Made by a program: the position numbers and the translations under genes. DNA of 64,000 nucleotides from Streptomyces sp. NBC_00539 (GTDB taxonomy: Bacteria; Actinomycetota; Actinomycetes; Streptomycetales; Streptomycetaceae), in contig NZ_CP107811.1 in NCBI RefSeq assembly GCF_036346105.1, forward strand, positions 5,475,501-5,539,500, in the 5' to 3' direction. Of this stretch, positions 46,690 through 49,363 are shown piece after piece; position 1 is the stretch's first letter; each line of letters starts with the position of its first letter. Below the pieces are notes generated by a model, which saw only the letters and a list, made by a program, of their open reading frames with translations, ran no database searches and had not been told where the DNA came from.

Positions 46690-48015
46690 GTGAGCGAGTC
46701 GAGCGCGGGCAGGACCGTCTCCGGTGAGGACGAGGTCGTGGACCTCTGCCGGGACCTCATCCGGATCGACACCAGCAACTACGGGGACCACTCGGGCCCC
46801 GGCGAGCGCAAGGCGGCCGAGTGGGTCGCGGAGAAGCTGGCCGAGGTCGGGCTGGAACCTCAGATCATCGAGTCGCACAAGGGGCGGGCCTCGACGGTCG
46901 CGCGCATCGAGGGCGAGGACCCTTCGCGCCCGGCGCTGCTGATCCACGGGCACACCGACGTGGTCCCCGCCAACGCGGCCGACTGGACGTACGACCCCTT
47001 CGCCGGCGAGATCGCCGACGGGTGCCTGTGGGGGCGCGGCGCCGTCGACATGAAGGACATGGACGCGATGACGCTGGCCGTCGTACGCGACCGCATGCGC
47101 AGCGGCCGCAAGCCCCCGCGGGACATCGTCCTCGCCTTCCTCGCCGACGAGGAGGCCGGCGGTGTCTACGGTGCCCGGCACCTCGTGGACAAGCACCCCG
47201 GCCTCTTCGAGGGCGTCACCGAGGCGATCGGCGAGGTCGGCGGCTTTTCGTTCACCGTCAACGAGAACCTGCGCCTCTACCTGGTGGAGACCGCCCAGAA
47301 GGGCATGCACTGGATGCGGCTCACCGTGGACGGCACGGCCGGCCACGGTTCCATGACCAACAACGACAACGCGATCACCGAGCTGTGCGAGGCCGTGGGA
47401 CGGCTCGGACGCCACCAGTGGCCGGTGCGCGTGACCAAGACCGTGCGGTCGTTCCTCGACGAACTCTCGGACGCCCTCGGAACCCCGCTCGACCCCGACA
47501 ACATGGACGCCACGCTCGCCAAGCTCGGCGGTATCGCCAAGATGGTCGGCGCAACGCTGCGCAATTCGGCGGCCCCGACGATGCTGGGCGCCGGCTACAA
47601 GGTCAACGTGATCCCCGGCCAGGCCACCGCGCACGTCGACGGCCGTTTCCTGCCGGGCTACGAGGACGAGTTCTTCGCCGACCTCGACCGGATCCTCGGC
47701 CCGCGCGTGAAGCGGGAGGACGTACATGCCGACAAGGCGCTGGAGACGGACTTCGACGGGAAGCTCGTCGACGCCATGCAGGGCGCCCTCAAGGCGGAGG
47801 ACCCGATCGCCCGGGCGGTCCCGTACATGCTCTCGGGCGGCACGGACGCCAAGTCCTTCGACGACCTGGGCATCCGCTGCTTCGGCTTCGCCCCGCTCCA
47901 GCTGCCGCCCGAGCTGGACTTCGCCGGAATGTTCCACGGAGTGGACGAGCGGGTCCCGCTGGACGGGCTGAGGTTCGGCGTTCGCGTACTGGACCGATTC
48001 ATCGACAACGCCTAA
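46690..48015 (+). CDS. M20-family dipeptidase
   Basis: The 441-residue metallopeptidase starts at GTG 46690 after GGGAGGAACAC. Zinc ligands are in [17 protein letters not shown] and [16 protein letters not shown], and the catalytic glutamate pair is in [17 protein letters not shown]. The lid domain is present ([15 protein letters not shown]). The family cleaves dipeptides or acylated amino acids. It sits just upstream of the chaplin pair, but functional linkage is not implied. Confidence 0.92.
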
Positions 48016-48152: not shown

Positions 48153-48386
48153 ATGCTCAAGAAGGTTGTCGCCGCTGCGGCTGCCACCGGTGGTCTGGTT
48201 CTCGCGGGTGCGGGCATGGCTGCCGCCGACGCGGGCGCCCAGGGTGCGGCCATCGGCTCCCCCGGCGTCCTGTCGGGCAACGTCGTCCAGGTCCCGATCC
48301 ACATCCCGGTCAACGTCTGCGGCAACACCGTCAACGTGATCGGTCTGCTGAACCCGGCCTTCGGCAACACCTGCGTCAACGCCTGA
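48153..48386 (+). CDS. chpH: Short chaplin (ChpH-like)
   Basis: The 77-residue secreted protein has an Ala-rich signal peptide (about 1-26, ending GMAAA) and one chaplin domain. The domain reads [20 protein letters not shown], then [19 protein letters not shown] with two cysteines for a disulfide. Short chaplins form amyloid-like films that lower surface tension so aerial hyphae can emerge. ACTAGGAGGAACA is a strong ribosome-binding site. A perfect 12-bp hairpin terminator follows. Assignment as ChpH rests on family and on its place beside a LAXTG chaplin. Confidence 0.92.
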
Positions 48387-48403: not shown

Positions 48404-48433
48404 GCCCCGGAGCGCATTCCAGCGCTCCGGGGC
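48404..48433 (+). terminator. Hairpin after the chaplin gene
   Basis: GCCCCGGAGCGC (48404-48415) and GCGCTCCGGGGC (48422-48433) form a perfect 12-bp stem with loop ATTCCA, 17 bp after the chaplin stop codon. Confidence 0.8.
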
Positions 48434-48538: not shown

Positions 48539-49363
48539 ATGCGACGACCCGTAGTACAGGTCACCAGGAAGACCCTGATCACCATGGCGGCCGCCGGCGG
48601 TGCGCTGGCGCTCGGCGGTGGTTACGCGCATGCGGACGCCGGGGCGGTCGGACACACGGTGAACTCGCCGGGCGTACTGTCCGGCAACAACGTGCAGGCG
48701 CCGGTGAACGTGCCGGTGAACGCCTGCGGCAACACGGTCACCGTGATCGGAGGCCTGAACCCGGCCTTCGGCAACCGCTGCGCCAACGGCGGCGGCCCCG
48801 CGAAGCCGGACCACCCGGGCCACCCCGGCAACCCGGGGACCCCCGGCCACCCGGGTCATCCGGGCAATCCCGGGACCCCCGGCCACCCGGGCAACCCCGG
48901 CCACCCGGACGAGCCGTGCGACGACCACCCGGGCAACCCGGGCAACCCCGGGACTCCGGGCAACCCCGGCAACCCGGGCACGCCCGGCAATCCGGGTAAC
49001 CCCGGAACTCCCGGCAACCCCGGGACTCCGGGTAACCCGGGCACGCCCGGCAACCCCGGCAACCCCGGGACTCCGGGCAACCCCGGGACTCCGGGCCACC
49101 CCGGCAACCCGGGTACTCCGGGCAACCCGGGCACGCCCGGTAACCCCGGGACTCCGGGCACGCCCGGAACTCCCGCCAACCCTGGTAACCCGGGAACCCC
49201 GGGCACGCCCGTTAACCCCGGCACCCCAGGGACGCCCGGCCAGGGCCACGGCAACCTGGCCGCCACCGGCTCGGGCGACGTGCTGACGGCCGGACTGCCG
49301 CTCGCGGGCGGGCTGCTGCTCGCCGGCAGCGTGCTCTACCGCCGCGCCCGCAACGCCGCCTGA
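48539..49363 (+). CDS. Cell-wall chaplin with collagen-like stalk and LAXTG sorting signal
   Basis: The 274-residue protein has a signal peptide (about 1-32) and one chaplin domain (about 33-83, cysteines 63 and 81). A Gly-X-Pro repeat region follows (about 88-238), built from GNP, GTP and GHP triplets. It is interrupted once by [10 protein letters not shown], which adds a cysteine. The C terminus is LAATG at 240-244, a hydrophobic helix and YRRARNAA, the class-E sortase signal. Usual long chaplins such as ChpC have two chaplin domains; here the collagen-like stalk takes the place of the second. The stalk would display the chaplin domain away from the wall. Confidence 0.85.

Follow-up and report, generated by a model that had tools for sequence, protein, structure and literature searches.

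The chpC orthologue of Streptomyces sp. NBC_00539, located within the 64,000-nucleotide stretch of DNA analysed here (the window), encodes a protein with one chaplin domain and a long proline-rich stalk ahead of a sortase signal, and belongs to a clade in which the second chaplin domain has been lost once. The features of interest are this single domain loss, the retained spacing between the remaining domain and the sorting signal, and a cysteine motif shared with another anchored chaplin of the same genomes, more so than the collagen-like rod. The protein is probably a wall-anchored chaplin in which a proline-triplet stalk of conserved length spans the wall and tethers the chaplin coat through one domain.

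The chpC gene and its locus

The ORF at 48539-49363 on the plus strand begins with an ATG at 48539, ends with a TGA at 49363 and encodes a product of 274 aa. In order, the plus-strand features comprise a signal peptide (48539..48634, read by eye, as was the cut after AHA), a single chaplin domain (48632..48790), a stalk of 155 residues (48791..49255) consisting mostly of Gly-X-Pro triplets in which X is Asn, Thr or His, an LAATG sorting signal (49256..49270, from the sequence) and a membrane helix with the basic tail RRAR (49271..49360). The stalk contains one cysteine, within the acidic motif DEPCDDHP (48908..48931, plus strand; Cys codon 48917-48919). The ChpA-C domain (PF03777) was matched at residues 27-83 with E 1.8e-26 and 92 bits against a cut-off of 21, and Pfam Collagen matched the protein with E 1.1e-21. 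The ORF, the Pfam matches and the stalk length bear out the layout given in the preliminary description, namely one chaplin domain, about 150 residues of Gly-X-Pro with a cysteine, LAATG and a helix. As in long chaplins, the LAXTG motif is followed by a membrane helix and basic tail, both read by eye. Pfam and a home-made profile each found one chaplin domain where a canonical long chaplin has two, and the protein was therefore classed as a single-domain ChpC variant rather than as a canonical long chaplin.

An M20-family peptidase (46690..48015, plus strand; PF01546, E 2.4e-32; NCBIfam NF005913, E 4.7e-224), used as synteny anchor and tree gene, is followed in the window by a chpH-like short chaplin of 77 aa (48153..48386, plus strand; PF03777, E 1.7e-30), and ChpC lies directly downstream of the latter. 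In 75/80 named loci the peptidase was followed by a short chaplin and, after it, by a longer chaplin frame, in agreement with the chpC position proposed earlier; as parsed, four of the other five were without the short chaplin and one without the long chaplin. By its locus, together with the ORF and Pfam evidence, the window gene is the ChpC orthologue of its species. No short chaplin was parsed between the peptidase and ChpC in L062, L066, L076 and L081 of the S. violaceusniger group. A promoter and terminator scan found no sigma-70-type site and one terminator-like site against 1.0 expected. An inverted repeat without a T tail, CCCCGGAGCG ... CGCTCCGGGG, was seen by eye at 48405-48432 of the window, between chpH and chpC.

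The host genome (7.5 Mb, two contigs) has 12 chaplin-domain matches. A further anchored chaplin, this one with two domains, lies at C1:5226016-5226432, and all six clade genomes checked also keep one more chaplin frame with two domains. Nine sortase places were found in the host genome, and the three that were tested all passed the class E cut-off (NF033747, 160 bits) with scores of 244-253 bits; with the LAXTG motif, this is consistent with the class E sortase anchor that had been suggested.

Loss of the second chaplin domain

The initial sample comprised 142 loci (80 named loci, 61 from genome searches and the window), of which 137 were parsed to give 130 unique ChpCs; none was parsed in L046, L074, L114, L140 and L170. 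Among these 130 there were 13 single-domain ChpCs (the window, L009-L016, L112, L113, L115 and L123), 116 two-domain ChpCs and one frame-broken ChpC (L033), which was left out of the domain counts. The single domain had been set against a usual two in the preliminary description, and this contrast is supported both by the 116/130 count and by the two domains given for ChpA-C in the available text of PMC7766987. A further sample, consisting of the best 30 loci of a 393-genome genus scan ranked by likeness to the window, added 22 new loci: 16 new single-domain ChpCs, a repeat of L014, a new two-domain ChpC, and four whose stalks matched those of earlier two-domain ChpCs exactly. The pooled set of 147 unique ChpCs contained 29 single-domain, 117 two-domain and the one frame-broken sequence. 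The 16 added single-domain ChpCs are a biased draw because the loci were ranked by likeness to the window and, the count covering the best 30 loci of the scan, single-domain ChpCs may also occur elsewhere in the genus.

Two frame-broken genes were observed. In L033 (6733-7719, Streptomyces sp. GKU 895), domain 1 and domain 2 of ChpC lie in different frames. In G042 (L114/L170), a member of the clade, ChpC is interrupted by an in-frame stop directly behind the chaplin domain, and its stalk is in another frame; as read, this stalk has no cysteine motif, and the gene is either broken or subject to an assembly fault in the repeats.

On the tree of the M20 gene, the single- and two-domain states were separated by one change among 130 labelled rows, and one change was again obtained on the enlarged tree of 149 rows. 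The 29 single-domain rows grouped with the unlabelled, frame-broken relative G042 in a set of 30 rows (support 100). This tree comes from a quick search on a single gene, and its root is uncertain because no branch separated the outgroup from the other rows. Two domains are present in the nearest branches and in both Actinacidiphila rows that were readable (L053, L075), which argues for loss rather than gain of the second domain. In this sample the loss happened a single time, in the ancestor of the clade, and it looks new.

The retained domain was scored half by half in the first 13 single-domain ChpCs and resembled domain 1 of two-domain ChpCs in both halves in 11/13, including the window; the likeness was weak in one half for L012 and L123. 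A recombination hybrid of domains 1 and 2 was considered and is not supported by this 11/13 result.

Spacing between the chaplin domain and the anchor

The distance from the end of domain 1 to LAXTG was similar with and without the second domain, at 152.5 +/- 20.6 residues in single-domain (n=13) and 157.6 +/- 22.4 in two-domain ChpCs (n=116; p 0.35), whereas the stalk alone averaged 152.5 and 80.5 residues respectively (p 9e-9). For all 29 single-domain ChpCs the distance was 151.8 +/- 18.0 residues (p 0.19 against two-domain ChpCs). Within the two-domain ChpCs, the inter-domain linker and the stalk were inversely related in length (rho -0.56); for linker and stalk taken together the variance was 508, against 1168 expected under independence. 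This trade-off was also seen in 115 independent contrasts on the tree (r -0.51, slope -0.85, p 5e-9), with a weaker rank form (rho -0.33, p 3e-4; opposite signs 65, same 36). Both the similar distance with or without domain 2 and the trade-off between linker and stalk suggest that the residue count from domain 1 to the wall anchor is constrained, though not fixed; this constraint looks new. Equal residue counts are not equal physical lengths, a folded chaplin domain being shorter than 50 extended residues. By arithmetic only, 155 residues at 0.31 nm per residue, the polyproline pitch given in the accessible part of PMC3707005, come to about 48 nm. That the amyloid domain keeps its distance from the anchor hints at a ruler for the coat.

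Predicted role of the single-domain ChpC

Class E sortases attach ChpC to the wall in S. coelicolor (PMC5148588), where the long chaplins are regarded as tethers of the fibril layer (PMC7766987, PMC5618241), as described in the portions of these papers that were available. By analogy, a class E sortase would join the Thr of LAATG to peptidoglycan in the window ChpC, which would then link the hyphal wall to the amyloid coat that the short chaplins form. We infer both its anchoring and its coat-tethering from this literature. The proline-triplet stalk would form an extended polyproline-type rod across the wall and present one chaplin domain to the coat. With the second domain lost once in this clade, the stalk is longer by about as many residues, so that the remaining domain still lies about 150 residues from the anchor. 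The stalk sequence turns over rapidly by gain and loss of repeats, while its length and its single acidic cysteine are kept. The polyproline rod, the spanning of the wall and any chain-linking role of the unpaired cysteine are predictions from sequence.

Cysteine motif shared by two anchored chaplins

Exactly one stalk cysteine was present in each of the 29 single-domain ChpCs, compared with any stalk cysteine in 9/116 two-domain ChpCs. Three to six of the eight neighbouring residues are acidic, and these neighbour sites hold 139/261 of the acidic stalk residues in 232/4402 positions across the 29 stalks. The motif takes the form DEPCDD or DEPCDE in 18/29 and HEPCDE in four, and is DDCEP or EDCEP in L015, L016 and L191. 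Across the 29 ChpCs the cysteine lies 17 to 82 residues from domain 1, which indicates a conserved motif within a drifting stalk. The inserted cysteine had been noticed in the preliminary description, where its being the one fixed point of the stalk was not recognized. The mature protein has three cysteines, an odd number, in 13/13 single-domain ChpCs counted. Descent of the motif from a remnant of domain 2 (GNDC) was considered and appears unlikely by inspection, the preceding segment in the window being stalk-like (GHP/GNP) and unlike inter-domain linkers.

A second single-domain LAATG chaplin was found in the same genome at G000:C1 4072636-4073925 (L175 237-1526, minus strand; L246), between short chaplins and rodlin genes (NF041022, E 1.6e-58). 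Presumably it occupies the chpA position of S. coelicolor. Its stalk of 288 residues is rich in Ala, Pro and Gln and carries EEECDDHP. In a search of 35 genomes for this rodlin-locus chaplin, the 22 from the clade all contained it, with E values no higher than 2.6e-40; every copy has a single chaplin domain and EEECDDHP or a form of it altered at one residue. In the 13 outsiders, no match was stronger than E 1.6e-19. In four of the 22 (L213, L215, L217, L219) no anchor was in frame in the stretch examined. A DNA pattern for E-x-C-D-D-H-P, with six residues allowed at x, matched two places in the host genome, exactly these two genes, and eight in six clade genomes, all in ChpC or rodlin-locus chaplin genes; in four of these genomes the pattern, being strict, missed one of the two genes. 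There was no match in four outsider genomes and none for a reversed control. The single acidic stalk cysteine is shared by both single-domain anchored chaplins of the clade, and this sharing looks new.

Outside the clade, all five readable two-domain anchored chaplins at rodlin loci were without a stalk cysteine (G005, G019, G044, G052, G057). G010, partly masked, was left out of this comparison, and no anchored chaplin was parsed in the stretches of G023 and G025. The rodlin-locus chaplins of G013 (L243) and G011 (L245) are single-domain, with LPHTG rather than LAXTG and PPGGGHST or PPPGGDHT repeats, and each has two stalk cysteines in acidic context. Degenerate chaplin-like anchored proteins (17 and 21 bits) were found near the rodlin genes of G015 (L263 7923-9056) and G004 (L264 5403-6305); the first has eight stalk cysteines and the second none, which goes against a strict rule. 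The two are homologues, and the protein with eight cysteines carries repeats of GECEEPEPGEEPEPGCEEP.

The unpaired acidic cysteine is, by inference from sequence, the best lead to what, if anything, offsets the lost domain. One tentative possibility is a disulphide between the stalk cysteines of two anchored chaplins, either of the same kind (ChpC or rodlin-locus chaplin) or mixed, through which a pair of single-domain chains would present as many chaplin domains as one canonical chain; one cysteine per chain makes pairs possible and covalent trimers not. The near-exclusive link of the stalk cysteine to single-domain ChpCs and the odd cysteine count are consistent with this, although clade-wide conservation represents one or two events and not 29. 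The presence of the motif or its one-residue variant in 22/22 rodlin-locus chaplins points the same way, although the distance from motif to anchor is not common to the two proteins, with averages of 114 and 177 residues; the matching 113 and 113 residues in the host genome were set aside as chance. Stalk cysteines occur in the single-domain chaplins of G011 and G013 and in none of the five two-domain rodlin-locus chaplins, yet G011 and G013 have two each, and the degenerate proteins have none or eight. Homodimers of ChpF and ChpH have been reported in wall extracts (PMC3079736, from the part of the text available). Against a need for pairing, the extra two-domain chaplin frame is kept in the host genome and in 6/6 clade genomes checked, so a chain with two domains in cis is not gone from these species, and the acidic Cys-His site could instead bind metal or have some other partner. 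The fuller version, in which an acidic cysteine clasp in the otherwise unrelated stalks of both single-domain anchors would pair chains into a two-domain amyloid nucleus in trans, kept at the surface of the wall by a proline rod of conserved length, is rather doubtful. If the clasp does pair chains, a single point mutation would suffice to test anchor valency directly. For the question of why long chaplins carry two amyloid domains, the clade offers a natural experiment, its chpC and rodlin-locus anchors using one, with the caveat that the third, two-domain chaplin frame remains.

Composition and turnover of the stalk

Residues 91-233 of the window ChpC comprise 42 Gly-X-Pro triplets, with a longest unbroken Gly run of 27 triplets, a long uninterrupted Gly-X-Y tract as in bacterial collagen-like proteins. 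The 42 triplets are encoded by 17 different 9-base units with 67-77% matches between repeats (Tandem Repeats Finder), which contradicts the near-identical DNA units described earlier. The repeats are unlikely to be an assembly artefact, as the reading frame runs through the stalk and other species, such as the nearest relative, L176, have it too. The expected variation in length was observed between close species, with one genome per species: 155 residues in the window and 147 in L176, and 172 in L180 and 148 in L181, which have similar flanks and differ by repeat units.

Gly runs of at least 10 triplets occur in 9/13 single-domain ChpCs, in the frame-broken L033 and in 30/116 two-domain ChpCs, where they come after domain 2; explaining the Gly-run state on the tree takes 21 changes. 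Because two-domain ChpCs often carry the rod after domain 2, rod and second domain are not alternatives. The earlier suggestion that the rod replaces the domain thus survives in that the longer stalk fills its place in residue count, and fails as an exchange of one for the other. Comparison of ChpC orthologues showed that the rod is neither special to the window ChpC nor universal.

In the 40 longest Gly runs, from stalks with runs of at least 10, Pro is at Y in 767/802 triplets and at X in 0/802; the Gly runs of the 29 single-domain stalks have Pro at Y in 571/626 and at X in none. Bacterial collagens are reported to have Pro at more than 30% of X and about 5% of Y positions (PMC3707005) and Thr as the most common residue at Y (PMC8968730), in the accessible text of both. 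Pro mainly at X is a reported preference and not a strict definition, and none of the 40 stalks followed it. The Gly-X-Pro tracts are of collagen-like type, with a Pro register opposite to that reported for bacteria.

Proline periodicity was commoner than glycine periodicity in the ChpC stalks. Among the 86 two-domain stalks lacking Gly runs of 10, 45 had runs of at least eight with Pro at every third place (in 500 shuffles the mean was 0.08 and the maximum 2). A polyproline helix has three residues per turn. Since Pro at every third place often persists where the Gly run is short, the common property of these stalks is best read as the Pro triplet and not collagen, making the stalk a probable proline-helix wall spacer that is sometimes collagen-like. 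In PMC3707005, as far as its text was available, Pro tails ahead of sortase motifs are described as polyproline spacers. Of the 29 clade stalks, eight have no Gly run of 10 and four have neither a Gly nor a Pro run of eight, so a strict rod is not universal. The AlphaFold view of ChpA-C, with large disordered regions and a few beta-sheet clusters (PMC13251363, part of the text), is as compatible with a flexible chain as with a rod.

A true collagen triple helix, in which three ChpC chains would trimerize through their Gly-X-Pro tracts into a stiff, Scl-like rod bearing three chaplin domains, is unlikely. The Pfam Collagen match, the unbroken Gly runs of up to 43 triplets within the clade and the imino acid in every triplet of the Gly-X-Pro tract are what such a helix would predict, but the Pro register is the reverse of that in reported bacterial collagens, and the Gly runs are missing from eight clade members, change state often and are commonly absent from Pro-triplet stalks. 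In addition, the single cysteine per chain cannot covalently link three chains, and Pfam names no trimerization domain.

The least probable explanation is neutral low-complexity drift, in which slippage would expand G+C-rich repeats whose only role is to be disordered: it accords with the fast turnover between close species (window/L176 and L180/L181) and the frequent gain and loss of Gly runs, but is opposed by the reduced linker-plus-stalk variance, the inverse linker-stalk relation on the tree, the conserved cysteine motif inside the stalk and the synonymous variety of the DNA units.

Two further collagen-like sequences were noted. The minus strand of the window at 49000-49164 also reads as collagen-like triplets, with a Pfam Collagen match of 1.2e-10 against 4.3e-10 for the sense strand, because G+C-rich triplet repeats read alike on both strands; this match is a trap for annotation. 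Elsewhere in the genome, a secreted-looking protein of 363 residues (G000:C1 4554627-4555718, L171, minus strand) has ordinary Gly-Pro-X tracts (GPTGDTGPAG).

Comparison with known systems

Within the available parts of the chaplin and bacterial collagen literature, mostly from non-subscription sources, we found no account of the stalk, of a single-domain ChpC or of the cysteine motif. The window ChpC resembles ChpC and the other long chaplins of S. coelicolor in its locus beside chpH, signal peptide, chaplin domain (PF03777) and C-terminal sortase signal (LAXTG), and differs from S. coelicolor ChpC in having one domain instead of two, the S. coelicolor layout being taken from papers and recall. 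Compared with the two-domain ChpCs of the sample, its stalk is about twice the mean length, is composed of Gly-X-Pro and contains the conserved acidic cysteine.

The matches of the stalk among solved structures were mostly collagens and other repetitive chains. Like the streptococcal Scl1 and Scl2, the window ChpC would be wall-anchored and has Gly at every third residue, but its Pro is at Y and not X, its display domain is a chaplin, and it scored 25.4 and 19 bits against NCBIfam cut-offs of 325 and 400 for Scl1 and Scl2 respectively. The tail of the pilin FctB (PXXPXX, in the portion of PMC3707005 available) likewise has Pro at every third residue ahead of a sortase motif, whereas the ChpC stalk is much longer and often has Gly first in each triplet. 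The rodlin-locus anchored chaplin of the clade shares with the window ChpC one chaplin domain, LAATG and the acidic cysteine motif, in the form EEECDDHP, and differs in its long Ala/Pro/Gln-rich stalk, which is not collagen-like.
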